Below, in pieces: positions 29,493 through 48,851 of a DNA stretch of 64,000 nt (positions are counted from its first letter, which is position 1; every line of letters begins with the position of its first letter). Source of the stretch: Pyrodictiaceae archaeon (GTDB lineage Archaea > Thermoproteota > Thermoprotei_A > Sulfolobales > Pyrodictiaceae). The position numbers and the translations under genes were made by a program. The stretch covers positions 872,880 to 936,879 of the forward strand of contig JALVSY010000007.1 of assembly GCA_027036135.1 (NCBI GenBank), in the 5' to 3' direction. The notes beneath the pieces were generated by a model. It did no database searches. It was not told where the DNA came from and was given only the letters and a program-made list of their open reading frames with translations.

Positions 29493-29632
29493 AAACGTTA
29501 CGGCTGCTCTGCCACCCCCGCCGCAGCGTCGCCGACTGCCTACGCAGCTGCCTAGCCGCCCACGTAAAGCCAGCCCCTAAGCCGAGCCAGCTAGTTGCCG
29601 CGCTCATATTATACGGGTGGTATCGCGTAAAA

Positions 29633-30070
29633 GTGCTCGGAGACGATAACGGGGATACCGGGGAGCAGGAGCTACCCAGGGCTATAGACTGCACGCACCT
29701 CTCCATGAAGGAGCCTTATCCGCTCAATAAGCTAAGAGGCCTCCTCGCCGCCCATAGAGCCGCAAGAACCCTGGCATGGCTCCTCGAGAGAAGCACTACT
29801 AGCATAGACGTACTCGAGGCCCGAGGCGGCATACTCGGTACGAGGCTCCGCGTGAAGCTAAACCCCCGTATACTAGGCGTCGACGCGCCCAGGTGCATAT
29901 GTGGGGCAGAGCCAAGGGAGCTAGAACTAGCCGTAGAGCAGCCACAGTACGCGGCCCTCGAGCCCCTGGCAATATACCTCCGAGCAGCTAGGCAGAAAAC
30001 GTGTCGAAACAACCTACTACAATTCCTAGAACAATGGAGCCCGAGCCACCAGACAAACCAGCCCACATAA
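29633..30070 (+). CDS. hypothetical protein
   Basis: 145 residues from GTG 29633 (an ATG at 29705 is also possible). A helical basic segment LRGLLAAHRAARTLAWLLE is followed by a strand pair and CICGAEPRELEL. Only two close cysteines, CxC, stand out. A TATA-like ATATTATAC (29605-29613) lies upstream. It lies between the IS and the second 60-bp repeat. No family recognised. Confidence 0.5.
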   Translation: MLGDDNGDTGEQELPRAIDCTHLSMKEPYPLNKLRGLLAAHRAARTLAWLLERSTTSIDVLEARGGILGTRLRVKLNPRILGVDAPRCICGAEPRELELAVEQPQYAALEPLAIYLRAARQKTCRNNLLQFLEQWSPSHQTNQPT

Positions 30071-30103
30071 CCCATGGCTCTCTCCCGGTATCGGCCTAGC
30101 ATA

Positions 30104-30163
30104 GTGGAGGGTTTCTCTGGGAATATGCAAGACCATTCCCGCATATTCCCTTCATCGTTCCCC
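30104..30163. repeat. 60-bp repeat, copy 2
   Basis: 56 of 60 bases match 27529-27588. Its internal palindrome has two mismatched pairs (GGGAATATGCAAGA opposite TCCCGCATATTCCC). It lies just past the end of the multi-wHTH gene and, with copy 1, brackets the IS607 element and the 29633 gene. Confidence 0.8.
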
Positions 30164-32684: not shown

Positions 32685-33410
32685 ATGATACTCAAGAGAA
32701 AGTCTCCGGAGGAGCGCTTCGCAGAGGACCTGGCGAGGGCCCTCGAGGAGGAGCACAAGCGCTGGCTCGAGAGCCTGCCGCCCGAGAAGCGCCGCCTAGT
32801 CCTCGAGCGCGAGAAACTAATGCTCAAGAACAGCCCCGCGTGGCGCGAGGCAGAGAAACGCATCGAACGCGGCGAAATCAAGCTATACTGGCGCAAGATA
32901 GACGGTGACTTACGCATCGTTGCTCGCGATACAATGAAGAACTTCCCCTTTAAGCGGCACAGGGATTACTTATTACTGCCTTCAGGCACGGAGGGATACA
33001 TGGAAGATCATCCTCCCATAAGCATTGATTGGATAACAGAAAATGCAGAAACTTGGCGGCCTCGCGCTCTGGCAACAACTAAACGCCTCGAGGAGCCCAT
33101 TGAACTTACAGGATACGATGGTTACTATGAAGTTCCTTACGTCTGTGAAATAGAGGCAAGGGATGGCCGCCGCTTCCTAGCCGCTGCCATGGAGTGCCTA
33201 CTCCTCGAGGAGATAGACGGCAGGAAGACCGCTAAAGAGGTAATAGATAACGTCTCGACACGCTACGTGGAGAAACTACTCCATAAATACAGGCAGCTAA
33301 TAAGAGAGGGGAAGCTAGCCAAAGAGGAAGCAAAAAATCTAATGGACTCAATACCTGGCGACGCCCTTGTCGGCCTCGCTATATTGAAAGATCTCGGCCT
33401 CATAGTCTGA
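32685..33410 (+). CDS. hypothetical protein
   Basis: 241 residues, ATG start after GGAGAGTG, 37 bases after the RHH gene and probably cotranscribed. The first 60 residues are a charged helix (EERFAEDLARALEEEHKRWLESL). The middle contains YDGYYEVPYVCEIEARDGRRFLAAAMECLLLEE, then helices. No motif recognised. Overlaps the end of the convergent VirB6-like gene by 11 bases. Confidence 0.6.
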   Translation: MILKRKSPEERFAEDLARALEEEHKRWLESLPPEKRRLVLEREKLMLKNSPAWREAEKRIERGEIKLYWRKIDGDLRIVARDTMKNFPFKRHRDYLLLPSGTEGYMEDHPPISIDWITENAETWRPRALATTKRLEEPIELTGYDGYYEVPYVCEIEARDGRRFLAAAMECLLLEEIDGRKTAKEVIDNVSTRYVEKLLHKYRQLIREGKLAKEEAKNLMDSIPGDALVGLAILKDLGLIV

Positions 33411-35658
33411 CTGTCTTTAGGTCATTACCGCCTATCGTCCTATTACGTCTCCAAGCTATCTCCACAGGCTTTTTGATCTTCATGTACACTGTTTGTCCTA
33501 TGATTGCTCCTGCCTCGGCGCCTGTCCTTATGCGCTGCTCGATGCGCTGCCACTCGATAGGGTGGAGTTCCTTCAGTTTTGCTGGCACCTTGATGCCTGT
33601 TTGCTTCTCAAACGTTATTGAGAACTCTCGTATGAATTGTCTTGCCCTGTTAGACATATATGCGTGTAGTCTGGCTGCTACTGCGCCGCCGAGGGCCGCG
33701 ACCTTTGCTGCTTTGCCGCCCGGGGCCTCCGCTACTGCCTCCTTGATGGCGCCTATCTCGCGCTTGGCTCTCTCTGCTACAGGCCTGACTGGGGCTTTGA
33801 GAGCCTCCTTTGTCGCTTGCCTGACGCGCTGTGTTGCTGGTGGTATCTCCTCTACTTGCGGCTTTTTCTCCAGATCAACACCCATGTTCTTAGCCATCTC
33901 CTCTGCTCGGGATGCTGCTATACTCCTGGCGGCCTCCTCTCCTCGCAGCTCATAGCCGCCCTTGACTGTCCTGGCGTCGGCGCTGGTTCCTGGCCCTGCC
34001 CATGCCTGGCCAGGGCTTGTTGCTGGCCTCATCCACTCGGTCCTGGGTGGTGCTCCTGTTGCTGGGCCCTGCCAGCCCGGCATTGGGCTGATGTGGCGCC
34101 ACTCGCCTGGGGCTACGCCCATGCCTGCCGGCGTTGGGTGTATTGGTGGTCTTAGGTACTCTGTGTGTCCTACTACCTGGCCGGGTGCGGCTAGCATCAT
34201 TGCCTGTGGCCGTGCTGCTAGGCCTAGCCTGGTTGCTGCTAGGGCTCCTAGTCTGCCGTAGATTCCTGCGAAGAGGCCTGCTCCGGGTAGTGGTGCTCCT
34301 ATTAGCCCGGCTATCATGGGTCCCGTGGCGAGCATTGCTAGGGGGAGGGCTACGCCGTAGCCTATGACTTCGAGTGGGGATGCGTTCGCGGGGTTTGCCA
34401 GCGCCCTGGCGCTGAGCCCCGCCATTGCTGCTAGGACGAGGTTCCACGCCATGAGCGCCACGATGACGTTTGTCATGCTCCTCGCTACGTGGCGGGTGCC
34501 GGGGAAGAGCCAGAGCACGGCTATGAGCGGGATTAGGAGGTAGAGGGCTTCTAGGAGAAGGTACTTGAGCAGCGCTATGAGCACGAACCCGGCGAAGCCC
34601 AGTGCCCCGGTCGCCGCCAGGCCCCCGGCCCCGCCGACGGGGAGCGCGGCCGCGAGCGCGGTGAAGCCCAGCAGCATGCTCATCCACGCCATCAGGACCC
34701 CGGGCTGCGCCATAGCTATGCTTATGCTGTTCACGAGCCTGGCAGCCCAGGTGTAGAGGGGTTGTGCGAGGCTGAGCGCCAGCAATACGTAGGCCACGTC
34801 TCTCAGAGCATCCAGCCAGGAGAGGCCTTTCTCGAACTCCCAGAACGCCTTCCAGAGCGCGAGCCCTATCACCGCGTAGCCTAGGAGGAAGACTGCGTAG
34901 CTATGGGTGTCTAGCAGCGGGGGAGCGGTCTCGGGGACGGTGACGAGCATGAGCCCTACCTTCTCGAAAACCCCGCCGGCACCCGTGTGGGCGAGGAGCC
35001 ACACAACAGCGTCGCTGAGCAGAGCAAAGGCCTTCCCCACGGCCTTGGCGGCGTACGTCATTATGCAGCCGGGCCACGAGGAGGGGCTCCAGCCGCAGCT
35101 AGCTCTCAGCTCGCTAAACGCTGCGTCGAGCTCGGAGCCCAGGCTCCTTATAGTGACCCTGCACTCCGCGGAGACCTGGCCCGTGACCCTTATTGTGTAC
35201 TCGCCGTCCTCCCCGTAGCTGTGGCTCGCCACGCAGTAGCCCTGCCCCGTACATGTAGAGGAGGTGTTATCGCCCCAGTCAATACTCGCGCTCACGCTCC
35301 TACCCGGAGCAGCGACCACAACGCTCACGGGGATGTACTTGTAGAACCCAGCCGGGGGACAGAACACCTCAGCCCCGCCACCAGCACCACCAGCCCCGGC
35401 GCCAGCGGCGTAGCCGCTAACCCACGCAACTATTACCGCAACCGTTACCGCCCACGCCCAGCTGCTTTTCGCGATATCTGAGCGGCCTAGCGCGTATGCT
35501 ATCCCGCCTATCATGGTGAGGATTACGGCGAAGGCGTAGCCTAGGCCCCTGAGACCCGTGGCGTTGCTACCGCTGGCCGCGTAGCCTATAGCTGCTAGCG
35601 ATAAGACCAGGTGTAGCTGGAGCAGCGCAGCCACTAGCCAGAGCGCTCTCCGCCTCAC
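33400..35658 (-). CDS. VirB6/CedA-like polytopic membrane protein with PKD-like domain
   Basis: About 752 residues from GTG 35658 (GGTAGTGGGGG upstream); an earlier start at 35823 or 35853 is possible. An N-terminal signal/TM pair is followed by an extracellular PKD-like domain (SASIDWGDNTSSTC ... SHSYGEDGEYTIRV), then about eight hydrophobic segments (such as WLVAALLQL, VIALMAWNLVLAAMAGL). The tail is a long hydrophilic, Ala/Pro/Glu-rich cytoplasmic region. This matches the channel component VirB6 and archaeal CedA/TedA. The direction and neighbours fit a VirB2-VirB3-VirB4-VirB6 set. Confidence 0.65.
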   Translation of the reverse strand: MRRRALWLVAALLQLHLVLSLAAIGYAASGSNATGLRGLGYAFAVILTMIGGIAYALGRSDIAKSSWAWAVTVAVIVAWVSGYAAGAGAGGAGGGAEVFCPPAGFYKYIPVSVVVAAPGRSVSASIDWGDNTSSTCTGQGYCVASHSYGEDGEYTIRVTGQVSAECRVTIRSLGSELDAAFSELRASCGWSPSSWPGCIMTYAAKAVGKAFALLSDAVVWLLAHTGAGGVFEKVGLMLVTVPETAPPLLDTHSYAVFLLGYAVIGLALWKAFWEFEKGLSWLDALRDVAYVLLALSLAQPLYTWAARLVNSISIAMAQPGVLMAWMSMLLGFTALAAALPVGGAGGLAATGALGFAGFVLIALLKYLLLEALYLLIPLIAVLWLFPGTRHVARSMTNVIVALMAWNLVLAAMAGLSARALANPANASPLEVIGYGVALPLAMLATGPMIAGLIGAPLPGAGLFAGIYGRLGALAATRLGLAARPQAMMLAAPGQVVGHTEYLRPPIHPTPAGMGVAPGEWRHISPMPGWQGPATGAPPRTEWMRPATSPGQAWAGPGTSADARTVKGGYELRGEEAARSIAASRAEEMAKNMGVDLEKKPQVEEIPPATQRVRQATKEALKAPVRPVAERAKREIGAIKEAVAEAPGGKAAKVAALGGAVAARLHAYMSNRARQFIREFSITFEKQTGIKVPAKLKELHPIEWQRIEQRIRTGAEAGAIIGQTVYMKIKKPVEIAWRRNRTIGGNDLKTVRL

Positions 35659-35762
35659 CCCGTTACCCCCACTACCTCTAGGCCCCTCCGGGAGAAGCCC
35701 GGAGAAGCCTGGTACGAGGCCACGACCCCGACAGCACCTCATTCCGGAGCCGATATAGACTC

Positions 35763-35794
35763 CATTGATAATTCCCTTATCGGGGTTATCAATG
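35763..35794. repeat. interrupted palindrome related to 18816-18849
   Basis: CATTGATAA (35763-35771) and TTATCAATG (35786-35794) are inverted around 14 bases. Read on the minus strand, the 46-bp context resembles 18804-18849 closely. In both places the translation would be IDNxDxxIINGxY. Confidence 0.65.
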
Positions 35795-35906
35795 AATACT
35801 ATGTGGCCGGGTAAAACACGCATGCCTAGAAAGAGGAGAAGCACCCAATTCATGATAGTAACTATATATAGTTTGTCTCACGGTCACTAGAACAGGGAGA
35901 AGTAGC

Positions 35907-36528: not shown

Positions 36529-37890
36529 CTATGGTCCTCTCAGGGGCCACCCGCCGCCCGTGACTATGTATAGTACTGCCAGTAGTGCTAGGATTGAGGC
36601 TGCCAGGCCTAGGTATGTTCTCCGGAGCACTGGTGGCGGCCCCGGGCTCCATGCTAGGGTGAACGTCCCGGTCGCTGTGTTGTTGAAGCTGTCGACGGCT
36701 ACTGCGGTGTATACGCCGGGCACGGCGGGGCACCACGTTGCACTGCCCAGCCCGGTTCTCAGTGCCACAAGCCTACCGTCCTCGTAGACTTTCAGCGCCA
36801 CGCTCTCGCACGCCCCGGCGGAGACCGTAATACAGTAGTCCTTTAGGCTAATGCTTGGCTTCACGTCGTCTTTTACCAGTACTGTCTCGTAGCCAGTCTC
36901 GTTCGCCGGAACTACCTCCCACGACTCGTTGACGACACGGCAGTCGTCGGCTATGTACCTGGCCAGTCTCCAGCCGAATGGCAGCGGCACCGTCAGCGTA
37001 TCGTTGAGGCATGTTCTTGTAGGCTCGGGCTTGTCCTCTATGAAGCATATCCTCGCTCTAAATAAGTGGCTGCTTGTCGGCTTCCTCGGCGGGCCCAGGA
37101 CAAGTCTAACGGTTCCCGAGGCGCTCGGTGAGGGAGGGCCCTCGATAGGTATGCTCTCAGCCGGGGCGCCGTAGCCCACCAGTCTAATAGCCGTAGCGTT
37201 ATCCACGAGCACCGTTAAGTTGTAGAGGAGGAGCATGCCCTCCTCCATGGGCACCGGGGTCTCGTTACCCAGCCGGAGGCCCTGGCCAAGGTTATAGAGA
37301 AGGACACTGGCGTTCACCAGCACAGAGCCGTTGCCGAGCGCCCTGTAGCCAGTAATGTTCAGGGAAACAACCAGTAGTGATGAATTAACCCTCCTTGGGA
37401 TGATTGTCGCTGTAGCTGTCCCCGCCAGGGTCGTGGTCGCAAGATAGCTCTGGGTCACGGTTGTCGTGCTTGTCTCAGTGCAGGTGCCATTATACCATCC
37501 CAGGCATACTGGGTACGAGTAACGGTACCAGGCAGTATAGCTACAGGTAAGCCCCTTCACAAGCTCATAGCTGCCTAGTGGCGCGTCGCAGGGAATCCTG
37601 GTCGTGGATACTAGTACCGTTGATGAGCCCTCCCCGAGGATTATCGGGCCACAGGTTAGGACGGCGGGCGGCTTCGGCCCGTAGCTAGGGTACCAGGGCG
37701 GCGGGCTCACGCCGATCAGCGTGTTCGTGAACGTGTAGAGAGCAGTAATGTTCATGCAGCGATAAACCGCGTTGCGTAGCCCGAACTGGTCGAGGGGACT
37801 AATTATGCTCGAGCCACTGCTACCCGCGTAGACAACGCTGCCTACGAGGGCCAGGAGCGTGGCCATAGCCACGATAGCTCTCATTTTCAC
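36529..37890 (-). CDS. secreted, membrane-anchored protein of the transfer locus
   Basis: 453 residues: N-terminal signal peptide (AIVAMATLLALVGSVVYAG), a large extracellular domain rich in Asn-X-Ser/Thr sequons and with many cysteines, and a C-terminal TM (YLGLAASILALLAVLYIVTGG). The gene begins four bases after the VirB4-like stop. Probably part of the outer channel or a surface adhesin of the apparatus. No homologue recognised. Confidence 0.6.
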   Translation of the reverse strand: MKMRAIVAMATLLALVGSVVYAGSSGSSIISPLDQFGLRNAVYRCMNITALYTFTNTLIGVSPPPWYPSYGPKPPAVLTCGPIILGEGSSTVLVSTTRIPCDAPLGSYELVKGLTCSYTAWYRYSYPVCLGWYNGTCTETSTTTVTQSYLATTTLAGTATATIIPRRVNSSLLVVSLNITGYRALGNGSVLVNASVLLYNLGQGLRLGNETPVPMEEGMLLLYNLTVLVDNATAIRLVGYGAPAESIPIEGPPSPSASGTVRLVLGPPRKPTSSHLFRARICFIEDKPEPTRTCLNDTLTVPLPFGWRLARYIADDCRVVNESWEVVPANETGYETVLVKDDVKPSISLKDYCITVSAGACESVALKVYEDGRLVALRTGLGSATWCPAVPGVYTAVAVDSFNNTATGTFTLAWSPGPPPVLRRTYLGLAASILALLAVLYIVTGGGWPLRGP

Positions 37891-37893: not shown

Positions 37894-39798
37894 TTACCAC
37901 TCTCCGGGCCTCGTCGAGAACACCCTCAGCTCCTCTGGCGTGGGCTGCACGTAGATGCGTAGACGCCAGCCACCAGCGACCCTGAGTATTCCCTGGCCAG
38001 GCTCGGCGTCGAGGAGCTGCTCCTCCTCCGCCTCGCTTAGATTATAGATGGGCTTAACCGCCTCCAGCGATGCCTCGTTCAGGCGTAGTAGAAGCACGGT
38101 GGCCGACTGCTCTAGGATTGTCCTGCCATGCTCGCTTCTCAGCACGTCGTGGGGCCTCTGGGTCGCGAACACGAAGTTAACGCCTTTCTTGCGACCCCTC
38201 CTCGCTATGTCGGCGAACATCAACATCAATGAGGGGTACTGGGCGAACATCCATCCCTCGTCTACTACTAGCAAGGAGTTGCGGAGCTGGGAGGAGACTA
38301 CGAGCGCTAGTAGTGCTCCTACCAGAGCCCTGGCGCGGCGGGACCTGATGCCGGCGAGCGCGTAGACAGCGCCCCTCCCTGTGGGGAGCGGGGGCTCTCC
38401 ACGGTATATCCACGAGTCGGCCTCGGCTGCTTTCAGGTAGTTCTCGAGCCCCGTGGCTCTCTCCTCGGCGAGCCTAGCTGCCTCCTCTAGGCTCTCGGAC
38501 TCGCCTAGAACGTCTACTAGCTCGCCTCGTAGCTCGTCGGGGACGCGGTAGTACTCCTGCACAATGTCCACGGCCTCGTCGAGCCCTATTACCCCCCTCC
38601 TCCACAGCCTGACAGGGTCCAGGCCTAGGCCTCCACGTTCCCCAGCAGCGTCCTTGCTTAGCTCGTAGCCCGCGAGGCCGGTAGCCAAGTACTCCCTAAT
38701 ACCAATGTACTCGGACTCAGGGTCTATGATTATGGTCTTCTGGCCCAGGCCAGCAGCCCACCACCTCCTCACATACACTTTCAGCGTCATGCTCTTACCT
38801 GAACCAGTCTCCCCCAGTACCACCACGTTGTAATTCGGCCTAGCATAGGGGTTGAAGACAACGGGCTCCCCGGTATCCAGGTCGTAGCCGAGATAGAGGC
38901 CGCCAAAGTCGACCAGCTGCTCCTGCACCAGAGGATACAATGCCTGCGCGCTCAGAGTATCGACATAATGGAATACCGGCACCGTCCACTCAAGATTATA
39001 TAATCGTCTCTGGTAGAACCCCGGGCCACTAGCATATTCTACCATCCTCGAGGCTAGGAGCTCCTCGAGGCGCCTGCTGCGCTCCCAGAGCTCCTCCTGG
39101 CTAGAACCCCTAACTACCAACACTATCGCTATCTTCACGAGCCGGGCCTTGCCTCCTAGGAGCTGTTGTAGCTGCTGGAGCTTGTATGCCTCCTGCTCTA
39201 GCTGCCAGGTCGTGGAGCCACGGAGCACTGATTGTAGCCTGAGAAGCCTCTGGTCAATCATCCTCCTCGCTTTAGCGGGCTCCACGGGCTCTATGAGGAA
39301 GTGTATCTCATCGGTAGCATAGATTAGCTCGAGGGGCCACGCCTCGGGCAGGCTGTCGGGCAGCTTGACAACAGTATACGCCCTAGCGTAACCGCCATCC
39401 TCTAGCTCGAGGATGCCGCGGGCTACGCGCCTCACTACAGGCCTGTAAGGCTCCGCTGCTGGCCTTGGCTCGTAGCCGAGCTGCATTAACAAGCCATAAT
39501 CCAGGCCCTCGGCGAAGAATAGGAGCCGGCGAAACTTGAAGCCCTCGATGCTGTCCCATGCTGCATAAATCGAGATACGAGCCTTATCATTGGCAGCGTT
39601 CAATAACGCGGTCCACTTAGATAGGAATCTGTCGCGCTCCTTCTCGGGGAGAGCCGCGAAGGGGTAGCCCTGGACCTGTAAAAGGAGGCTGAGCTCACTG
39701 CTTCTTGGGGCTCTCTTCCTCGCTCTTTGTTTCTCCCTCTGCCCCTGGCTTTGCTTCGACTTTGATAGGCTGGGCACGCTTCTCCCCGCTATAGACAC
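37894..39798 (-). CDS. VirB4/TraC-like (CedB-like) conjugation ATPase
   Basis: 634 residues. The C-terminal ATPase holds Walker A LGETGSGKSMT (about 327-337), the IIIDPESEY motif, Walker B SLLVVDEGWMF (about 509-519) and the sensor FVFATQRP. The N-terminal 300 residues form a divergent domain as in VirB4. It energises pilus/channel assembly or DNA transport. GTG start; the gene overlaps the preceding VirB3-like gene by about 100 bases, and the order VirB2-VirB3-VirB4 is conserved. Confidence 0.85.
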   Translation of the reverse strand: MSIAGRSVPSLSKSKQSQGQREKQRARKRAPRSSELSLLLQVQGYPFAALPEKERDRFLSKWTALLNAANDKARISIYAAWDSIEGFKFRRLLFFAEGLDYGLLMQLGYEPRPAAEPYRPVVRRVARGILELEDGGYARAYTVVKLPDSLPEAWPLELIYATDEIHFLIEPVEPAKARRMIDQRLLRLQSVLRGSTTWQLEQEAYKLQQLQQLLGGKARLVKIAIVLVVRGSSQEELWERSRRLEELLASRMVEYASGPGFYQRRLYNLEWTVPVFHYVDTLSAQALYPLVQEQLVDFGGLYLGYDLDTGEPVVFNPYARPNYNVVVLGETGSGKSMTLKVYVRRWWAAGLGQKTIIIDPESEYIGIREYLATGLAGYELSKDAAGERGGLGLDPVRLWRRGVIGLDEAVDIVQEYYRVPDELRGELVDVLGESESLEEAARLAEERATGLENYLKAAEADSWIYRGEPPLPTGRGAVYALAGIRSRRARALVGALLALVVSSQLRNSLLVVDEGWMFAQYPSLMLMFADIARRGRKKGVNFVFATQRPHDVLRSEHGRTILEQSATVLLLRLNEASLEAVKPIYNLSEAEEEQLLDAEPGQGILRVAGGWRLRIYVQPTPEELRVFSTRPGEW

Positions 39799-40252
39799 GC
39801 AGCTCTCGGAGAACCCTGTCGCCGAGCATTAGCCTGACAGTATGCTCCCCGGGCTCTAGGCCAGCTATCTCTACCCTGGCTAAGCCGTTGTCGACGCGGA
39901 GCCTATCATGTTCTTCTCCATCAACCTCTACGACTAGCTCCCCGGCCTCAGGCAAGGTAATGTATACCATTATGCTGCCCAGCGGGGCCCAGTACACTGG
40001 CTCGGTGGCTGGCTCGCGCTTCGCTAAGAGCTTCGAGATGGGAGGCTTAATCGGCAGAGCACCGAGCACAATCCCGGCAGCGAGAATAGCTGCTCTGGCC
40101 CAGAGCGGTAGCGATAGCTGCAGCGCTACGAGGAGTCCTACTATACTGAATAATGCCAGCCTTATCCTAACCGGGAACCCAGCGGCATAGAGGAGGGGCT
40201 CCTCGAGCCAGCCCAGGTCTGGTATGGAAAAAACCGAGACTAGGCGGGGCAT
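39695..40252 (-). CDS. VirB3-like membrane protein with beta domain
   Basis: 185 residues: two adjacent N-terminal TM segments (LALFSIVGLLVALQLSLPL and AAILAAGIVLGALP) with a positively charged connector, then a beta-sandwich-like domain (VEVDGEEHDRLRVDNGLARVEI) and a charged tail. The position between VirB2- and VirB4-like genes suggests a VirB3 role; the added beta domain is not typical of bacterial VirB3. Confidence 0.5.
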   Translation of the reverse strand: MPRLVSVFSIPDLGWLEEPLLYAAGFPVRIRLALFSIVGLLVALQLSLPLWARAAILAAGIVLGALPIKPPISKLLAKREPATEPVYWAPLGSIMVYITLPEAGELVVEVDGEEHDRLRVDNGLARVEIAGLEPGEHTVRLMLGDRVLRELRVYSGEKRAQPIKVEAKPGAEGETKSEEESPKKQ

Positions 40253-40262: not shown

Positions 40263-40562
40263 TCATGCTATGAACTGGCCTATAATCCACAACACCACGG
40301 ATATAGCTATTGCAGCCATTACTGCCCTACCGAGCCACTCTGGTCCACGGCCAAACGCGTAGTTGATCACCCCCACGAACGCCGCTATAACTATTATCGC
40401 GTAAGCTATCTTCTTCAGGTAGTTGGCCACTTGGTCGGCCAGGCTCGCCGCCTTCTTGAGGGGGTTTGTAGCGCTGGTTTTGTTGGTCTGGGCGTGCGCA
40501 GCTGTGGCTAGGAGAAGCAGGGTAGTTATCACTATTGTGAAAAAGACGTAGTGGTGCTCCAA
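40263..40562 (-). CDS. VirB2-like (CedA1/TedC-type) conjugative pilin
   Basis: 99 residues: signal peptide MEHHYVFFTIVITTLLLLATAAHAQ, then a short mature part with two hydrophobic helices (IAYAIIVIAAFVGVINYAFGR and GRAVMAAIAISVVLWIIGQFIA). This is the VirB2/TrbC pattern and matches archaeal VirB2-like pilins of Ced/Ted systems. TTG start after AGAGGTGAAAA. Adjacent to VirB3- and VirB4-like genes. Confidence 0.7.
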   Translation of the reverse strand: MEHHYVFFTIVITTLLLLATAAHAQTNKTSATNPLKKAASLADQVANYLKKIAYAIIVIAAFVGVINYAFGRGPEWLGRAVMAAIAISVVLWIIGQFIA

Positions 40563-40575: not shown

Positions 40576-40986
40576 CTAGGACGTGAACGTCGCCTGGAAC
40601 TCTGAGCCGTCGCTGAGAGTCACTATTACTATGTGTTGTCCGCTGCCAAGATTTGGTAAGGTAACTATCTTATGAAGCTCCTGGCCCGGTTTGAGGAGAT
40701 AGCCGCTGGCACCGATGCCTAGCTGCGAGCCAACATTCGTGCCGTCTATGGTTACTTTTGTTATGTTTGCTGCCGCGCCACCGACGTTCCTTATGCTTAG
40801 CTCGATATACGCCGTGTTACCGACATAGTCCACGGAGGCTGTTATCATTAGCTGGGGCTTCTTCGCTACCGCGCTGGCACTGGCGCTTACATACTTGTAG
40901 ATAACATAGCCGATGGCTATTGTCGCTGCTAGGAGGATGGCCGTTGCGATGAGGGGGCTTATTCCGCGAAGCCCTCTGCGTTGCAT
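40576..40986 (-). CDS. archaeal type IV pilin
   Basis: 136 residues. A class III signal QRRGLRG followed by ISPLIATAILLAATIAIGYVIYKY, the conserved hydrophobic N-terminal helix of archaeal pilins/archaellins. The C-terminal domain is beta-rich. ATG 40986 is preferred (GGGTGGAG upstream). The matching ATPase and TadC-like genes lie upstream. A TATA at 41166-41177 implies a 150-170-base, C/A-rich leader. Confidence 0.75.
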   Translation of the reverse strand: MQRRGLRGISPLIATAILLAATIAIGYVIYKYVSASASAVAKKPQLMITASVDYVGNTAYIELSIRNVGGAAANITKVTIDGTNVGSQLGIGASGYLLKPGQELHKIVTLPNLGSGQHIVIVTLSDGSEFQATFTS

Positions 40987-41201
40987 TGTCTCCACCCTTG
41001 TTCTCCACTAGGCTGCTAAGGAGTGGGAGAGCGCATGCCTGTGGGGAGGGTTTGGCCTTGTTGCCGTGGCTGTGGTAATCTGTGAAGGCGTTGTGGCTGT
41101 GATTCTTGGCGTTGTTTTTGTGGGTTGGTCGGTGTTGCTGGGCGTTACCCGGTGCATGGTGGAAAGCTATAAATATGGGTGTGTAGTGGATGGTGCAGGC
41201 C

Positions 41202-42074
41202 TCAATACCTGCCTCCATGGGCTGGGTATATGGGCTCCCTCACTGGTTTCTCCCGGAGCCTCCAGGCACCCTCCCCGATGCGCTCCACTATGCCTAGCGT
41301 CTCCAGCTTCTTTAGTACCTGAACCGCGCTCGGATAGTGTAGGGCAAGTATTCTCGCAAAATCATGGGCCGAGAAGGGTTGGTAGTCGAAGCTCGTCCTT
41401 AGGAGGTTGTAGAGTCTCTCCAGGTCGAAGGTAACCGTTATCCTCCCGTTCATACCCCTCATCCTCCGAGTAGAATCGATGAGGGGGAGAAGGAGCAGCT
41501 CTGCGGGGGCGAGCCTCCCGAGCCTGAGTCTGTGAGCCCTTGTAGCGGAGGGGATGTAGCCCCTCAGAGCCACTATGAAGAAGCCCGGGTAGCTCGCGAC
41601 GCTGCTCGCGTGGACCCGTATTCTTCCCTCGCCTCTCAGCAGGACGTGGTGGTTCTCGAGGCCTAGTAGGCAGCTGCTCCATATCCTTATCGCTCTATAG
41701 AAGCTTGCTCTCGAGGAGCCTGTGAGCTCCCATGCCTGCTGGGCTACTGGTCTCCCGAGGAGTCCTCTCGCGTGCTCCACGAGCCATGCCCAATAGGCGG
41801 CTGCCGCCGCCAGGGCCCGTTCATCGGCGCCGCGGCCATTGTTTACGCGGCACTCGCGCGCGTCTAGGAGCCACGCGGTGGAGTAGGCTAGCTCCGTGGC
41901 TTCCCGGTAACGCTTCACCCCGAGCTCCTCGAGCGCCGAGACCAGGAGTCTCCGGTAGTGCTCCGCCTCCTCGTCTACGCGTATGCGGCTGCGAAGCTCC
42001 TCGAGCAACAGTATGTCGAGGACGAGCTGCGCTCCCTCCCGCTGCTCGCCGAGGCTGTAAAGACTGGCAGGCAA
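41202..42074 (-). CDS. HTH-containing regulator
   Basis: 290 residues. The C-terminus is a wHTH (FSAHDFARILALHYPSAVQVLKKLETLGIVERIGEGAWRL). A second HTH-like segment, QQAWELTGSSRASFYRAIRIW, lies in the middle. The helix-rich N-terminus is unassigned. It sits between pilus biogenesis genes and pilin genes and may control their expression. Confidence 0.6.
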   Translation of the reverse strand: MPASLYSLGEQREGAQLVLDILLLEELRSRIRVDEEAEHYRRLLVSALEELGVKRYREATELAYSTAWLLDARECRVNNGRGADERALAAAAAYWAWLVEHARGLLGRPVAQQAWELTGSSRASFYRAIRIWSSCLLGLENHHVLLRGEGRIRVHASSVASYPGFFIVALRGYIPSATRAHRLRLGRLAPAELLLLPLIDSTRRMRGMNGRITVTFDLERLYNLLRTSFDYQPFSAHDFARILALHYPSAVQVLKKLETLGIVERIGEGAWRLREKPVREPIYPAHGGRY

Positions 42075-42167
42075 TGGCGGCAGCCCTCTTATTCTGGACA
42101 GGAGCGTAACACCTTACAGCGACTCCGCTTATTCATTTCCACGAGAAATGCATGGAGCGCTGAAAGA

Positions 42168-44135
42168 CTAGAAGACGTTGAGCAACATTATTGTCGCCAG
42201 CGTGGAGAGCACGGCAGCCAAGGGCCACAACGTGTCCCTCACCGTCAGGCTTATCGCCTTGGCGGCGAGGAAGCCCATCACCGCGGCAGCTATGAGCGCT
42301 AGCCAGGCTATGAACCCGGCGACGTTGCCGGAGAGCGTGAGCGGCAACGACTCGAGCACCTGCGTCGTCGAGCCCATGATTCGCTGCAGCCCAGCAGCCA
42401 TCACCGCCACTATCGGGGGGAACCCGATGGCGAGGAAGCCCAGCAGCCTAAGCCTCATACTAGCAGCCCTGTGTGCACTGACGTGCGCGTATACGAGGTC
42501 ATAGAGCCGCTCGAGTGCCAGAGGGTCGCTGGCCCCCTGCGAGCCAACGATGTTGACTACCGTGTACAGGGTGTACTTTGCTAGCCAGGAGCGTGCCCTA
42601 ATACCGCCTGACCTGGCCGCCGCCCTCGCAGCAGCTGCCAGGGGCTCCTCTACGCTGCCAACGGCGTGCTCCAGTAGCTGGGATACAGGCTTATCGGACA
42701 TGCTCCTCGTGTACTCTATCACCATTCTTAGTAGTGGCAGTAGCTCCCGCTCCTCTTTGCTCACTAGGCGCTTCTGTGCTCTGAAGGCCACGCCGTAGAC
42801 GCCTAGCCCGGCTGCAGCCGAGAACCCAGCGGACATTATCGCTGGTAGCCCGAGGACCGTGCATAGGAGGGCGGCTGCGCTTGCAGCCACCACGGCGGCT
42901 ATGACTGCCTCGGCGTCCCTGTATTTCTCCCTGAGCCGGGGCTGGCTACCAGCGAGTAAGGAGTAGCCTAGGGGCGCAGCCAGGATTATTGCTAGGGCTG
43001 CTAACCCAGCGCCCCTACCGCCGAGGAATGCCGAGAACATGACAAATATCAGGGTGGTCGCCAATAAGCCCATCAAGCCAGTGCCGAGGGCTACTCCGTT
43101 CTCCGCGTACGCGGCTATCCTGGCCCTTAGCTCGTCGGTCTCAGCGCGCAAGGTGTCGCTGAGAAAAGCTGCCACGTCGCCGCCGCTATCTCTTATCGCC
43201 AAGTAGTAGGCGTAGAACCTGCGCAGCCTACGGCTAGGATGCTTGTTAGCGAGTTCCTCGGGGCTCTTACCAGCATCAGCACCTATGGCTGGTAATAGTT
43301 TACTCTTACGGGCCTCTTCGAGCGCATCCTCGAGAGAACCTGTACCCGAGCGCTCCATGAGCCAGGCCCACAGGCTGAGATATGGGAGCTCCTCCTCCGC
43401 CGCCCTCGCTCTTTCCCTAGCTTTTGCCTCGAGGTGTGCTCTTAGGAGTGGCAGGGATAGAGGCGGCAATAGCGCTGATAGTAGTAGCGCCTTGCTCCCA
43501 GCAAGCACCGCCAGGCCAGCCAGCACAGCGGACGCGGCTAGACTACCTAGTAATATTATAGATACTAGTGCTGCGGTCTCGAACCTAGTCCACCTATAGC
43601 CAGCCTTCTCAACCGCCTCGGGGACCCCGAGCCGAGCTGCAACCCTATCCCCGAGGGGTATGGCGCCTAGGACCACGGGTACAACGTATCTTAGTACTCC
43701 TCGGGGCTCTTCGGGTCTCTCTCTGAGCCCCTTCCTAAGCATGTAGAGCATCCACGCGCCGGGGATTATCGGCAGTGCACCTATCAGCGCTAGTACTGGG
43801 TTCCTCTCTAGCTGGAGCGTGGACGAGACAACCCCCAGCACCATCATGGCTATAGAGGCTAGGAGTACTAGTCTCCTAGAGGGATAGAGCGCCAAGCGGT
43901 AGAGAAAACCAGTTGCCAGGTCTAGGGCAAATAACGCGAAGAGGAAAACACCTAGGCCGAGCACAGTGGGCGTGACACGGACCTCAGGCTCCGCTAGGCC
44001 CAGCAGCGTTCTCCACGGAACCATCCCGAGGATTATTAGGAGCGTTGACGCTATCGCCACCGCTAACTGGTAGCCCGTTATTATCCTCCTTGCCTTCTGC
44101 GTCTTTGCCTGAGCCGCCTCCATTACCCTCCCCAC
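42168..44135 (-). CDS. TadC/ArlJ-like type IV pilus platform protein
   Basis: 655 residues with two repeated T2SSF-like domains, each with hydrophobic segments separated by cytoplasmic helices (such as EELPYLSLWAWLMERSGTGSLEDALEEA and ELLPLLRMVIEYTRSMSDKPVSQLLEHA). It anchors the pilus ATPase in the membrane. Its 5' end overlaps the ATPase gene by about 150 bases in a different frame, so an internal start is possible. Confidence 0.75.
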   Translation of the reverse strand: MGRVMEAAQAKTQKARRIITGYQLAVAIASTLLIILGMVPWRTLLGLAEPEVRVTPTVLGLGVFLFALFALDLATGFLYRLALYPSRRLVLLASIAMMVLGVVSSTLQLERNPVLALIGALPIIPGAWMLYMLRKGLRERPEEPRGVLRYVVPVVLGAIPLGDRVAARLGVPEAVEKAGYRWTRFETAALVSIILLGSLAASAVLAGLAVLAGSKALLLSALLPPLSLPLLRAHLEAKARERARAAEEELPYLSLWAWLMERSGTGSLEDALEEARKSKLLPAIGADAGKSPEELANKHPSRRLRRFYAYYLAIRDSGGDVAAFLSDTLRAETDELRARIAAYAENGVALGTGLMGLLATTLIFVMFSAFLGGRGAGLAALAIILAAPLGYSLLAGSQPRLREKYRDAEAVIAAVVAASAAALLCTVLGLPAIMSAGFSAAAGLGVYGVAFRAQKRLVSKEERELLPLLRMVIEYTRSMSDKPVSQLLEHAVGSVEEPLAAAARAAARSGGIRARSWLAKYTLYTVVNIVGSQGASDPLALERLYDLVYAHVSAHRAASMRLRLLGFLAIGFPPIVAVMAAGLQRIMGSTTQVLESLPLTLSGNVAGFIAWLALIAAAVMGFLAAKAISLTVRDTLWPLAAVLSTLATIMLLNVF

Positions 44136-45609
44136 TATGTCTGCCTGCCTGGGAGAAGGAGACGCGCCGAGGCTCGGCCACCTTTACGAGTTCGTCTCTC
44201 TCGGGGTCGTAGCGGTAGAGGAGGCGTTCGCCACCGCTCGGCAGAACCTCATAGATGGCCACGACCCTGCGAACGGTTCTCTCGCCCAGCCTTACCTTGT
44301 CGAGGACAACAACAGACCAGAGAAGTACCAGCATATCCTCCCTTACGCCTAGCTTCAATAGTCTCAGCTTCAGCTCCTCCCAGTCCCGGGCATGGAACGT
44401 AGCAGCGCTAGCCTCCCCGAGCGCTGCTACCTCGAAGAGGTCCAGTATCTCTGGTCCACGGGCCTCCGTTATCGCTGTGAATTGTCCCCGGAGCCTCAGC
44501 GCGACCCGTATGAGGTCCTGGTACGTTACCTCGGTCTGCCTACTCGCGGCGAGGCTCCTCGCCCTCCTCACTCTCAGGCTTATGAAGCGTGGATGCCTCG
44601 GCCTAAGCTCCGGGACATCCTCTATGGCTACGAGCTTCCAGTCACCGGGGAGCTTCTCCATCAAGGCGTTTAGCAGCGTGGTCTTGCCCGTGCCCTGGGG
44701 GCCTATAATGAACACCATTCCGCGGCTCAGCAGCACTCTCAGCAAGTACTCGGCTGCCTCCCCGCTCAGCATCTTATCCGCTACCAGGTCCTCGAGGCTC
44801 AGCGGCTTCTCTGGGTGCTTCCTAACCGATAGACTCGTGGCACTAGCTATCGTGCCGAGAACCATTGTGACGCGGTGACCGTTCAGCTCCGCCTCGGCGA
44901 TAGGGAATGCTGGAGATATAGCTGTCCCAGCGGCGGAGGCCAAGCGCTGCAGGTATTCCCGGAACTCATACTCGGGGGGCGCAACTATGCTGGTAGGGAT
45001 GTACTCTCTTCCCGGCATCTTCCTGTGAATAATATCTACGGGTCTCCCGGCCACAGCACTTATCTCCTCAACATCCGGGTCGAGTACTAGCGGATAGAGG
45101 AACCCCCAGGGCGAGAGAGACTTCTCCACGTAGTAGCGGAAGGCCTCTGGCTGCCGCTGCATAATCTCCGAGACACCCAGCTTCTCTGCAGCCTCGCCAG
45201 CCTTCTCTGGCGGGAGACCGTGCTTCTCCAAGTACTCTATGACTATGCGGAGCGCCTTCTCGGCGTCAGGGTCTAAGCGGGGCTCTACGACCTCGTACCT
45301 ATCCTCGCCCACTACTATGGTCAGCACGCCGACGCCGTACTCGAGGACCCGGTGCTCGCTAATACTCCCCGCCTGGTCCTTGTCTCCCTCGCCGAACTGT
45401 CCCCCAGACTCTGCAGCTCCAGCACCCTCCCCACCCGCCTCAGGCTCCTCGGAAGCCCCATGGATTCTCTGAGCCTCTTCATCCTCGAGCAGGTCAAGCA
45501 ACAGATCCTCTTCTATCCCACGATGCTCTGTCTCCTCCTCGCCGCTCGGCTCCTTCACCAGCTCCTCGGGTATCTCCTCCCCGTTATCCCCCGCCATGGG
45601 CTCCATCAC
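43984..45609 (-). CDS. type IV pilus/secretion ATPase (TadA/VirB11 superfamily)
   Basis: 541 residues. Walker A GPQGTGKTT lies near residue 303, the acidic box AIEDVPELRPRHP follows, and the His-containing ASAATFHARDWEELKLRL element is near 420. The N-terminal 90 residues are acidic and low complexity. The C-terminal 50 residues are Gly/Asn-rich where the frame overlaps the TadC-like gene. This ATPase powers assembly of archaeal pili; as a VirB11 relative it could also serve the transfer channel. Confidence 0.85.
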   Translation of the reverse strand: MMEPMAGDNGEEIPEELVKEPSGEEETEHRGIEEDLLLDLLEDEEAQRIHGASEEPEAGGEGAGAAESGGQFGEGDKDQAGSISEHRVLEYGVGVLTIVVGEDRYEVVEPRLDPDAEKALRIVIEYLEKHGLPPEKAGEAAEKLGVSEIMQRQPEAFRYYVEKSLSPWGFLYPLVLDPDVEEISAVAGRPVDIIHRKMPGREYIPTSIVAPPEYEFREYLQRLASAAGTAISPAFPIAEAELNGHRVTMVLGTIASATSLSVRKHPEKPLSLEDLVADKMLSGEAAEYLLRVLLSRGMVFIIGPQGTGKTTLLNALMEKLPGDWKLVAIEDVPELRPRHPRFISLRVRRARSLAASRQTEVTYQDLIRVALRLRGQFTAITEARGPEILDLFEVAALGEASAATFHARDWEELKLRLLKLGVREDMLVLLWSVVVLDKVRLGERTVRRVVAIYEVLPSGGERLLYRYDPERDELVKVAEPRRVSFSQAGRHSGEGNGGGSGKDAEGKEDNNGLPVSGGDSVNAPNNPRDGSVENAAGPSGA

Positions 45610-45935
45610 TTACACAGCCATGGAGGGGTTACGAGAATATAGGTTCCCTGAGGGACTATGCTAGGGCATGGCTGGAGTGTGTTACTTGTGATGTTCGGCA
45701 CTATCCAGCACTGGAAGCTGCCCACGGTGCGCCAGTACGTCAGGTTCACTGTTATTGGAACGTAGCAGACGACGTGGGTCTCGTTGATTTCTACAACCTT
45801 CACGGGCCGTGGGGGCTCTGGCTTAGGGGTGTGGGCTTGTATCCACTTGTATAGCATTGGCGCTATCGCCACGGCTGCGGCGAGGAGGATTAGGGCTGCG
45901 TATAGCTCGGCTATTGCGCGCATAGGCCTAGGCAT
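45606..45935 (-). CDS. minor pilin-like protein
   Basis: 109 residues from ATG 45935: MPRPMRAIAELYAALILLAAAVAIAP resembles a class III pilin N-terminus, followed by a Cys-containing beta-like domain (CYVPITVNLTYWRTVGSFQCWIV). The stop overlaps the start of the ATPase gene, placing it first in the pilus operon. The start is supported by GGGAGAAGAGGGG nine bases upstream. Confidence 0.6.
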   Translation of the reverse strand: MPRPMRAIAELYAALILLAAAVAIAPMLYKWIQAHTPKPEPPRPVKVVEINETHVVCYVPITVNLTYWRTVGSFQCWIVPNITSNTLQPCPSIVPQGTYILVTPPWLCK

Positions 45936-45943
45936 TATCTCTA

Positions 45944-45996
45944 CCCCTCTTCTCCCGGGTTTCCCGGTAAGAGTGGAGGAGCTGGGAGAAGAGGGG
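45944..45996. repeat. 13-bp inverted repeat carrying divergent Shine-Dalgarno sequences
   Basis: CCCCTCTTCTCCC (45944-45956) and GGGAGAAGAGGGG (45984-45996) are exact complements 27 bases apart. Each lies immediately upstream of one of two divergent pilin-like genes, acting as the purine-rich ribosome-binding sequence of that gene. Confidence 0.65.
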
Positions 45997-46005
45997 CGAG
46001 CAACC

Positions 46006-47256
46006 ATGCGCGGCATAGGTACCTTGTTCGCTGGCTTGGTGGTACTGCTCGCTATTACGGCACTAACCGTGTACATGGTTCACGCGTACCTGGTGGCGCA
46101 GCAATCCCTGCGCGAGCAGCAACTGCTCTACGAGAAAGCAAGATACATAGCCGAGCACGCGAACATAACTGGCAGCACCATCAGCTTGCCGGAGCCAGCC
46201 GACCTAATAATAGTAGACCCCAGCGGTGTACCCCACGTAGCCAAAGACGTGAAAACGCTTACACTACCATGGAGCCCTGCAAACCTGAAAATCTACGTGG
46301 TGAAACGGGGCCGAGTACGGATAGCAGCCGCCGACCCCGTGGCCAGGGCCGCGGCCTTGGCCTCGGTCGCTGCAGCCCCGCTACAACCACTAGGCAGCTC
46401 TGCAGGCAGCATAGCTGGCTGCGAGTGGTACCTAGACCCATTCATCTACAACATAACTAGGAACCCAGCCGAGTATAGGGGCTATACATTGTACAAGGAG
46501 ATGCCGCAGATAGGTTACCTCTTCTACACAAGCCCTAGGTATCTTTGCCAAATGGATCCTATTAGGTATCCTAACTGGGCTATGTGGAAGTATCCTCTTC
46601 ACATCCTAGAGATCTTAGGAATTAATACTACAAGGTTGCTGAGCGACTGTCCCCAAATATATGTTTGGGATATAGCCATTGTGCCATACATAGGTGTCAT
46701 CGTCCGGGGGATACCACCAAGCATGCTGTACAACTATATGGAGCACTATTATGGCGATTTCTACCTAATATTCTACAATGGTACATGGAGAGAGATAGGA
46801 AGCGGTGTATACTGGGATTACACCATCCAAATAGGAAGTACACGTATAACGATAAAGAAGGTATACCTAAACCCGCGGTTCGCACCCATAGGTGACTGGA
46901 AGGTATTCATCAATGTGTCTTCACCCATTATTAGCGTTAACTATTCGAGAACAGAGACCCTTATCCCAGGCCAGAACGAGCTATGGATAAGCGCTAAGCT
47001 AGGTAACGGGCTAATACTAGCTGCCGAGAAGTGGTATGCCTATTACTTCGCAGAAACCTACAAAGGATTCCCAGCAGGGTGGGGAGATTACTGCTCGCAG
47101 CTGGAGCCCTGTGCCAAGGGATTTGGCATATACCGCAAGCTAAGTGCCTATGCAAAAGGAAGTGATTATGAATATCCATTACAAGCTGTTCTACTACTTA
47201 GGCATAGTGCTTACTCGTCATCACCAAGCATAGCATATATCTATAAGCACTGCTAG
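46006..47256 (+). CDS. large pilin-like surface protein (possible tip adhesin)
   Basis: 416 residues from ATG 46006 (AGAGGGGC upstream). The N-terminus RGIGTLFAGLVVLLAITALTVYMVHAYLV is a pilin-like helix. The remaining 380 residues are Tyr/Trp-rich, with sequons and cysteines, predicted extracellular. It is more AT-rich than its neighbours after 46480. Divergent from the pilus operon. Probably a minor pilin or adhesin. Confidence 0.55.
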   Translation: MRGIGTLFAGLVVLLAITALTVYMVHAYLVAQQSLREQQLLYEKARYIAEHANITGSTISLPEPADLIIVDPSGVPHVAKDVKTLTLPWSPANLKIYVVKRGRVRIAAADPVARAAALASVAAAPLQPLGSSAGSIAGCEWYLDPFIYNITRNPAEYRGYTLYKEMPQIGYLFYTSPRYLCQMDPIRYPNWAMWKYPLHILEILGINTTRLLSDCPQIYVWDIAIVPYIGVIVRGIPPSMLYNYMEHYYGDFYLIFYNGTWREIGSGVYWDYTIQIGSTRITIKKVYLNPRFAPIGDWKVFINVSSPIISVNYSRTETLIPGQNELWISAKLGNGLILAAEKWYAYYFAETYKGFPAGWGDYCSQLEPCAKGFGIYRKLSAYAKGSDYEYPLQAVLLLRHSAYSSSPSIAYIYKHC

Positions 47257-47433: not shown

Positions 47434-47739
47434 GTGGGCGAGTGGGTTCTATGCAGGATATTCTTCCGGGGAGAGAAAACACTAGAGATATGCAATAAGC
47501 TACTAGACGAGCTAGCAGAGAAAGGCTACATACACATCCGTAGAGAAGACCCAGAGAAAAGCATCAAGTACCACGTAGCCAAGAGGCTACGAGAACTAGG
47601 CATACTCATGCACCGAACAATAACCAGTTGCGGTGCAGACAAAATATACCGCATATACGTGGTAGACCGCAAGAGAATGGCTAAGCTAAGACTAGAATTC
47701 GACCAACTAGACCGCCCATGGCCGATATGCATTGAGTGA
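47434..47739 (+). CDS. hypothetical protein, possible DNA-binding
   Basis: 101 residues, GTG start. Helical with a KLLDELAEKGYIHIRRED hairpin and KYHVAKRLRELGILM, suggesting a wHTH-like fold, followed by a strand pair. No clear family. Upstream is a 177-bp region with two CTCCC motifs. Confidence 0.45.
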   Translation: MGEWVLCRIFFRGEKTLEICNKLLDELAEKGYIHIRREDPEKSIKYHVAKRLRELGILMHRTITSCGADKIYRIYVVDRKRMAKLRLEFDQLDRPWPICIE

Positions 47740-47919: not shown

Positions 47920-48795
47920 ATGAGAGCCAAGAGCCAAGCAATAACTATTAGGGAAGTTGACTGGAGAAGTTTCGCTATATACCTCGAGGGGCTTGGGCTC
48001 TCGAGGAAGTGGAGGGAGGATCTGCTAAGGTACGCTAGGCGCTATGGATGGCTCGTGTACGAGGACCATGTTAGGCTCCGTGTGGAGCTGAGGAGATTAA
48101 GCCCCCATATGCGCAACAAGGTGATGAATGCACTATCGCACTTAGCGAGGTTCCTTGAAGAGCACGGCGAGGAGGGGCTCTACGAGGAGCTGAGGAAACG
48201 GTTCCGGAGAGCACGGCTAGCATGGAGCAAGGGGCGGCCCCGGCTACGGGTTCTCGCTAGCCTCGAGGACATGCTAGAGCCTGTAACTCATGCAGCGTCT
48301 ATGCTCAAGCCAAGGCACTATAGGGTGTTCGCGGCGTTCCTCTTAGCCACTGGGCTCCGGCCCGAGGAGGCTGCAAAAGCGTGGCGAAGCTACTGGCGCG
48401 TGAGGATGCGCTACCGGGACATGGTGCTACTGGACCTAGAGGCAGTAGGACTCGACAGAGACACTAAGAGAGCCATAGTAGCCATGGTTCACCCGCTTGC
48501 GGACGCTGAGGTGCCGGAGAAGCCCAGGATAAGCCTAGCATTACTCCGGAGGAAGTGGAACAAGGCCGCAGAAGAAGCTGCCGGGAAGAGAATAGAGCTT
48601 TACACCATGAGACGGCTCCATGCAACACTCTTACTACACGCCGGGGTACCGGAGCACATAGTGGACCTGCTACAAGGCCGCCCAGGCTCCACAATCCTGC
48701 GACAAAACTACATCATGTACACGCTCTACGAGTACTGGCACAGCTACATCAAAGCCCTCCAGAACCCCCTCTCAATAATTCTAGGCAAAGACTAG
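47920..48795 (+). CDS. int: tyrosine recombinase (pNOB8/SSV-type archaeal integrase)
   Basis: 291 residues. The catalytic core is LLATGLRPEEA (Arg147), LYTMRRLHATLLLHAGVPEHIVDLLQGRP (box II) and ILRQNYIMYTL (nucleophile Tyr264). The N-terminal half is a SAM-like core-binding domain. The stop codon lies five bases before the right att repeat, and the gene is intact, as in pNOB8-type integration and unlike SSV-type, where the gene is split. It integrates the element into tRNA-Asn. Confidence 0.9.
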   Translation: MRAKSQAITIREVDWRSFAIYLEGLGLSRKWREDLLRYARRYGWLVYEDHVRLRVELRRLSPHMRNKVMNALSHLARFLEEHGEEGLYEELRKRFRRARLAWSKGRPRLRVLASLEDMLEPVTHAASMLKPRHYRVFAAFLLATGLRPEEAAKAWRSYWRVRMRYRDMVLLDLEAVGLDRDTKRAIVAMVHPLADAEVPEKPRISLALLRRKWNKAAEEAAGKRIELYTMRRLHATLLLHAGVPEHIVDLLQGRPGSTILRQNYIMYTLYEYWHSYIKALQNPLSIILGKD

Positions 48796-48799: not shown

Positions 48800-48851
48800 C
48801 GGGCTGTTAACCCGGTGGTCGGTGGTTCGAATCCACCCGGCGGCGCCACAC
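48800..48851 (+). repeat. attR core (52-bp direct repeat of the tRNA-Asn 3' half)
   Basis: Identical over 52 bases to 13465-13516, starting in the anticodon stem and including the encoded CCA. It is a partial tRNA only. Chromosomal sequence resumes at 48852. Confidence 0.95.

Follow-up and report, generated by a model that had tools for sequence, protein, structure and literature searches.

The way in which conjugating archaea keep hold of a partner is still an open question, and a locus of a Pyrodictiaceae archaeon (assembly GCA_027036135.1, contig JALVSY010000007.1, positions 872,880–936,879 of the forward strand; coded G000:C7:872880-936879) bears on it. The whole 64,000-nucleotide (nt) stretch is called the window here, and positions are in window numbering unless another locus or genome code stands before them. 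The window contains a 35.3-kb integrated conjugative-type element (13465–48851) in which type IV pilus genes adjoin genes for a type IV secretion system (T4SS). An earlier note, made from the sequence alone, proposed that a dedicated adhesion pilus is encoded together with the transfer channel as an archaeal solution to mating-pair formation or, alternatively, that its TadA-type ATPase serves as VirB11. We find that the pairing of adhesion-pilus and transfer genes is real, conserved and element-borne. We favor, at a probability of about 0.6, the reading that this is an adhesion pilus for mating-pair formation, an analogue of Ups plus Ced carried by a single element.

Pilus and transfer genes of the integrated element

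The features that bear on the question are as follows.

13465–13516, + strand: attL, 52-bp repeat, the 3′ half of a tRNA-Asn gene (tRNA 13438–13513)
23386–26799, + strand: VirD4/TraG-like coupling ATPase; TrwB_AAD_bind, TraG-D_C and T4SS-DNA_transf above cut-off
33400–35853, − strand: VirB6-like protein with multiple membrane segments, start probably internal; name inferred from position, membrane segments and family
36529–37890, − strand: o453, N-terminal hydrophobic stretch; conserved in two relatives
37894–39798, − strand: VirB4 ATPase, start probably internal; AAA_10 at E 3e-10 and NCBIfam VirB4 models; relatives found
39695–40252, − strand: o185, putatively VirB3-like from its place between virB2 and virB4 and membrane segments in homologues
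40263–40562, − strand: VirB2/TrbC pilin; PF04956 at 34.3 bits, cut-off 27.9
40576–40995, − strand: class III type IV pilin, UpsA-like; UpsA at E 6e-14, signal RGISPLIATAILL
41202–42074, − strand: winged-helix protein, putative regulator; Pfam matches all below cut-off
42168–44135, − strand: TadC/UpsF-like platform protein, start probably internal; T2SSF at 22.9 bits, just below 25.2, and UpsF at E 3e-22
43984–45609, − strand: TadA-type pilus assembly ATPase; PF00437 at E 4e-20, 72 bits, cut-off 24.9
45606–45935, − strand: second pilin-like protein (MPRPMRAIAELYAAL), overlapping the tadA start by 4 nt
46006–47256, + strand: large pilin-like protein (MRGIGTLFAGLVV), divergent; candidate tip adhesin
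47434–47739, + strand: o101, small conserved protein adjoining the integrase
47920–48795, + strand: tyrosine integrase (archaeal Phage_integr_3); PF16795 at E 2.7e-7, above cut-off
48800–48851, + strand: attR, 52-bp direct repeat, perfect copy of attL

The integrase sits immediately inside the right end of the element, which is bounded by the two perfect tRNA-Asn repeats. In a genome of the same genus (G004), the left flank, the tRNA gene and the right flank are continuous and the island is missing; thus, the island is an integrated mobile element of 35.3 kb. It is rich in guanine plus cytosine (GC), with 57.6% in the pilus part and 59.1% in the T4SS part, compared to 46–49% in the surrounding chromosome. 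An integrase with att repeats in a tRNA gene, and VirB4 together with a VirD4-like ATPase, are features of archaeal integrative/conjugative elements. No relaxase was recognized among those element open reading frames (ORFs) that were scanned, a subset of all ORFs. Known archaeal conjugative plasmids are likewise described without one (PMC12857230).

The predicted type IV pilus set consists of TadA, TadC, the UpsA-like pilin, the second pilin and the large divergent pilin-like protein. Thus, a TadA/T2SSE ATPase, a TadC platform, class III pilins and a peptidase in trans are all at hand, as in archaeal type IV pili. The earlier note had named the TadA-type ATPase, the TadC-like platform, the class III-signal pilin and the VirB2-like gene, and the family matches listed above bear out all four. 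An AlphaFold model of the class III pilin (mean predicted local distance difference test score 84.1) has an N-terminal helix (residues 14–38) and a β domain; it has seven PDB matches at E ≤0.001, and archaeal type IV pili take the first four places among them. In a TadC tree, the element protein groups with platform proteins. UpsF was considered and rejected as a specific marker, as its model matches 179/214 genomes of the order and scores the TadC of the host chromosome (124.8 bits) above that of the element (79 bits). Within the element, no gene for a prepilin peptidase was recognized; the search for one advised by the earlier note led to the host chromosome, where the sole PF01478 (Peptidase_A24) match of the genome at a threshold of E 0.001 (G000:C7:1014087-1014425), a PibD homologue, lies outside the element.

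Two ORFs needed correction of their starts. The second pilin, listed as o156 (45606–46076), misses the class III pattern at the listed start and is a pilin by homology; its homologue in L030 bears the signal RGVSEIV, and the protein probably starts at 45935 (MPRPMRAIAELYAAL). The 490-residue ORF of the large pilin-like protein likely starts at about 46006 (MRGIGTLFAGLVV) rather than at 45784. The class III signal patterns used are working ones, partly devised for this analysis. The revised start of the second pilin leaves 70 nt between these two divergent genes. The claim that two further pilin-like proteins and a helix-turn-helix regulator precede virB2 on the same strand therefore stands in part: the second pilin is on the minus strand, but the large protein is on the plus strand. 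A winged-helix protein is present on the minus strand, with homologues in L027, L028, L030 and L042, but its Pfam matches are sub-threshold only.

VirB2, VirB3-like, VirB4, VirB6-like and VirD4-like proteins together make up a minimal type IV secretion set. Small VirB2-like proteins occupy the same place in relatives, where Pfam TrbC matches 3/7 at E ≤0.5; a VirB2 profile found no credible match in the PDB. The naming of o185 as VirB3-like parallels the gene order TrbC-TrbD-TrbE. No Pfam family matches the VirB6-like protein above cut-off, and its family profile matches proteins in 4/4 conjugative archaeal plasmids. In three elements (window 35765–35792, L027 13199, L030 6684), the VirB6-like gene is preceded by a hairpin with arms TTGATAA/TTATCAA, and a second copy is present in the window at 18819–18846. 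It has one match in 563 kb of other loci and none in 1.09 Mb of mostly bacterial loci, and is a candidate operator or transfer origin.

The minus-strand order is pilin2, tadA, tadC, winged helix, pilin, virB2, virB3-like, virB4 and o453, with successive gaps of −4, −152, 93, 206, 13, 10, −104 and 3 nt. Between the end of the UpsA-like pilin gene and virB2 are 13 nt, and the virB3-like gene follows virB2 after 10 nt. As judged by these small gaps and the overlap, the run from the pilin to virB4 is tight. We regard this anatomy, a conserved pairing of pilus and transfer genes, as highly probable.

Recurrence and moderate co-inheritance of the two modules

A VirB4 search of 98 genomes found relatives in 24, including that of the window. 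Linkage was counted at 20 of the 26 VirB4 places (the six weakest were dropped) over a distance of 15 kb, with T2SSE counts per genome that exclude weak matches of about 24–33 bits. A T2SSE (TadA-type) ATPase lies within this distance in 12/20 loci (G000, G014, G024:C10, G011, G058, G026, G056, G036, G046, G022, G092 and G007), compared to 1.16 expected under random placement (P 9e-11). The co-occurrence in related elements that the earlier note had suggested surveying is, thus, well above chance.

Synteny with the window is complete in L027 (G014) and extends to the majority of genes in L030 (G011), L028 (G024), L042 (G022) and L044 (G007); these five loci and the window form the group that we label ICE-A. 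The order TadA-TadC-pilin-VirB2-VirB3-VirB4 is preserved among close relatives. L042 (13263–13799) and L044 (12621–13079) each have an extra gene between tadC and the virB genes, for a similar small membrane protein. Four ICE-A elements are bounded by att repeats in tRNA-Asn (window, 52 bp), tRNA-Thr (G014, 74 bp), tRNA-Val (G011, 62 bp, 93.5%) and tRNA-Ser (G007, 63 bp, 96.8%). They span about 35 to 39 kb, and both modules lie inside each repeat pair; in G022, a comparison of two stretches showed no repeat. The common att repeats rule out that the pilus genes of these four elements integrated on their own, and in the window the like GC content of the two parts does so too. Relatives that consistently lacked the pilus genes, or had acquired them separately, would have spoken against a joint module, but these four tRNA-gene elements carry both. 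G007 encodes several pilus ATPases, yet has no Peptidase_A24 match at E 0.001; it may have a prepilin peptidase that is divergent in sequence.

A second group, ICE-B, has a VirB4 nearer to that of pNOB8-type plasmids, a shorter platform protein beside TadA, and class III pilins. Its platform is identified as TadC by a profile–profile match (probability 98.5, E 2.6e-15), on which the assignment rests because Pfam T2SSF matches only 8/17 platform proteins scanned. A platform gene stands beside TadA in the 6 ICE-A loci and in 10 further ICE-B and CedB-linked loci (the latter by profile–profile match). A scan of IMG/VR with the VirB4 alignment yielded 98 stretches that fit a pattern, and no relative among them.

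Phylogenies were built from hand-picked rows: TadA trees with 65 of 89 distinct rows and then a careful tree with 53, a VirB4/CedB tree with 43, and a TadC tree with 37. In the 53-row tree, five of the six ICE-A TadA proteins form one clade (100/99), with that of L044 elsewhere, and the ICE-B and CedB-linked ATPases form a single clade (100/100). Within ICE-A, TadA-tree distances are correlated with VirB4-tree distances (r 0.86, p 0.004, n=6), as they are within ICE-B (r 0.46, p 0.027, n=5). The ratios of nonsynonymous to synonymous substitution rates (dN/dS) between the window and L027 are 0.20 for tadA, 0.15 for tadC, 0.23 for the pilin and 0.16 for the second pilin, while virB4 has 0.12 and virB2 has 0.45; these values are rough because dS exceeds 1. 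The apparent purifying selection on tadA, tadC, both pilins and virB4 supports the adhesion-pilus reading.

Two other regions of the element stand apart from these modules. Just inside its left end are three related tandem genes (13487–14952; repeat families D1 and D2), one of which was scanned and has no Pfam match. A Resolvase and TnpB pair (27605–29454) lies at 27529–30163 between 60-nt direct repeats that are 93% alike and contain a palindrome.

Proposed role of the pilus and rival explanations

We propose that the host prepilin peptidase would trim the element pilins, and that TadA and TadC would then assemble a thin pilus carrying the large pilin-like protein at its tip for recognition. 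This pilus may bind a neighboring cell and gather partners, as Ups pili do ahead of Ced transfer (PMC9905601), after which the VirB2-VirB4-VirB6 channel and the VirD4-like pump would move the element DNA. Expression of the pilus may be tuned by the winged-helix gene and by the 70 nt between the divergent genes. Since relatives carry the same pair of gene sets, cell contact and DNA transfer seem to move as a unit in these archaea. As for the earlier note's dedicated adhesion pilus, the anatomy, the recurrence, a moderate co-inheritance and purifying selection speak for it, whereas mating-pair formation itself is inferred only; we lean toward a role in mating contact.

The closest parallel is the pairing of Ups and Ced in Sulfolobaceae, in which a type IV pilus for species recognition acts together with a DNA machine of VirB2/VirB4/VirB6 type (PMC9905601, PMC11868833). 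UpsA and UpsF are the best-scoring NCBIfam models for the pilin and the platform of the element. However, the element proteins are far below the cut-offs of these families (UpsA 52 of 130 bits, UpsF 79 of 400 bits, CedB 30.9 of 700 bits), Ups and Ced are chromosomal and apart, and the element additionally has a VirD4-like pump and an integrase. The pairing of pilus and transfer genes has prior art in thaumarchaeal elements and in bacterial IncI and PAPI-1 pili. The genes of thaumarchaeal integrative-conjugative elements are described as non-syntenic and they carry TFIIB, whereas here gene order is kept among close relatives and the element itself shows no prepilin peptidase. IncI plasmids (R64, TP114) and PAPI-1 have a type IV pilus beside a T4SS for partner recognition (PMC9045228, PMC12857230, PMC5297154), and that of TP114 stabilizes mating pairs (PMC9045228). 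These are bacterial systems, and TP114 has a PilV shufflon adhesin; the present system is an archaeal one of TadA, TadC and class III pilins, and would use the peptidase of its host. In the literature covered, mainly non-subscription, we found no description of a type IV pilus that is encoded next to CedB or by a conjugative element of Crenarchaeota, although the tables of a census of archaeal type IV pili (PMC4858521) may hold such clusters.

Several observations weigh against a pilus dedicated to mating. The conjugative plasmids pNOB8, pHVE14, pKEF9 and the 103-kb plasmid of Thermococcus share the VirB4, TraG/VirD4 and VirB6-like families with the element, but profiles and pattern found TadA, TadC and the class III pilin in 0/4 of them; the sole weak tadC match was to a 53-residue ORF (E 5e-4). 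According to a 2023 paper, the conjugative plasmids of archaea have no recognizable gene for a pilus protein (PMC9905601), and for archaeal plasmids a review of December 2025 names nothing besides homologues of VirB4 and VirD4 and a single conserved membrane protein (PMC12857230). As the four plasmids and the VirB4 loci without TadA show, the pilus is not obligatory for archaeal conjugation. Seven of the 20 VirB4 loci lack a TadA-like gene (G024:C33, G090, G071, G063, G080, G027 and G057), of which G024:C33, G071, G063 and G080 are short contigs or close to contig ends; an eighth, in G030, shows no more than a fragment of TadA, at the end of its contig. Within the element, tadC is set apart from the run of pilin and virB2 by a 206-nt gap and the regulator gene, and the predicted VirB2 model is of low confidence and without a match in a fold search. 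In the trees, the clade nearest to ICE-A TadA is Ups plus Bas with moderate support (88/87); the TadC tree recovers the same groups and does not settle whether ICE-A is tied to Ups. L028 and L030 are ordered differently in the TadA and VirB4 trees, and across the full set of 18 linked loci the agreement between these two trees falls short of significance (r 0.15, p 0.08). These disagreements imply that modules have been exchanged; together with the correlations within groups, they suggest modules that stay together over moderate time and are exchanged at depth. The plasmids indicate that the pilus is accessory, probably for finding or holding partners. As an observation in its own right, G024 has two elements: L028, which bears the pilus, and L029 (G024:C33), in which VirB2-like, VirB3-like, VirB4, VirB6-like and TraG genes, and no pilus genes, were seen over the 19 kb read.

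That TadA is the missing VirB11 of the transfer channel, with the pilins incidental, is suggested by the common superfamily of T2SSE and VirB11, by the interleaving of pilus and VirB genes, and by the fact that no other VirB11 was recognized among the element ORFs scanned. However, the window TadA reaches only 79.6 bits with the VirB11 model (cut-off 250), compared to 136–144 bits with the BasE, ArlI and TadA models. Bacterial VirB11, TrbB and CpaF are split from every archaeal row of the TadA tree (100/100), and among chains of solved structure, those nearest to the window TadA in sequence are GspE, FlaI and CpaF, followed by VirB11. The adjoining platform gene, a recurrent companion of TadA, is not needed for a VirB11 role. 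The conjugative plasmids function without TadA (PMC12857230), so TadA is not a required VirB11. We therefore set aside the alternative offered in the earlier note as very unlikely, while noting that TadA may have a dual role. A chimeric machine, in which VirB4 and VirD4 pass DNA across the membrane and the type IV pilus joins a VirB2 pilus in its delivery, would resemble what has been proposed for PAPI-1, which has VirB4, VirD4 and an essential type IV pilus (PMC12857230). The 13 nt between the pilin and virB2 genes would suit such a machine, but the Pfam-supported VirB2 homologue implies that a conventional conduit exists. Furthermore, type IV pili are not known to have a wide lumen, and we consider this machine quite unlikely.

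A pilus that is cargo of benefit to the host, serving attachment, biofilm formation or uptake with no part in transfer, is also unlikely in our view. It would explain why the pilus and VirB4 modules are separable across lineages, as seen over all 18 loci, and why plasmids transfer without a pilus module. It accords less well with a linkage to VirB4 far above chance, with the seven changes of the VirB4- or CedB-linked state on the TadA tree, and with the presence of a like module beside a chromosomal CedB homologue. Decay into a relic without present function is hardly credible, as the frames are open throughout, dN/dS over ten genes compared to L027 is 0.12–0.45 (with the same reservation as to dS), and the att repeats are perfect. 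An adhesion pilus for mating contact is, thus, the reading that we retain.

CedB-linked clusters and a possible contact pilus of archaea

Outside Sulfolobaceae, CedB homologues were counted at 12 places that score at least 180 bits and below the cut-off. In 11/12 of these (families f2 and f5), a T2SSE ATPase lies about 4 to 5 kb away; the weaker f3 places, checked in two genomes (G031 and G021), show no T2SSE linkage. Clusters L249, L250, L251, L252, L253, L254 and L258 contain, in this order, a class III pilin, TadA, a TadC-like platform protein predicted to cross the membrane 5 to 9 times, a large protein (about 690–800 residues) and a CedB-like ATPase, which is split into two frames in L258. 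The surrounding genes look ordinary chromosomal. Four f2 CedB proteins were placed in the VirB4 tree and form one clade with Sulfolobaceae CedB (100). Within Sulfolobaceae, 10 CedB proteins are above cut-off, and T2SSE positions were obtained for nine genomes (all but G073). No T2SSE match lies within 15 kb of CedB in any of these nine; in two (G065 and G079), one lies at about 17 and 21 kb.

Some species are described as having Ced without Ups (PMC9905601), and the CedB-linked cluster is a candidate for their contact pilus. A joint domestication of Ups and Ced from an ICE-A element is unsupported, since CedB does not group with ICE-A VirB4; ICE-A TadA is nevertheless near Ups and Bas in the TadA tree. 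A wider scheme, which we offer tentatively and consider doubtful as a whole, would make the type IV pilus a standard, repeatedly recruited mating-contact module of VirB4-family loci in this order. Elements would carry it as a unit with their transfer genes, and a domesticated CedB homologue would still cluster with pilin, TadA and TadC of the element-pilus lineage in two or more families beyond Sulfolobaceae. The separate Ups and Ced of Sulfolobus would be the split form, and Ced species without Ups would use such a pilus.

The element described here combines a VirB2 recognized by Pfam with a complete-looking adhesion-pilus set, the sole gap in which is the peptidase, present in the host. It offers a concrete gene set for testing how archaea hold their partners, and hints at where Ced-bearing archaea that lack Ups may find their contact pilus.

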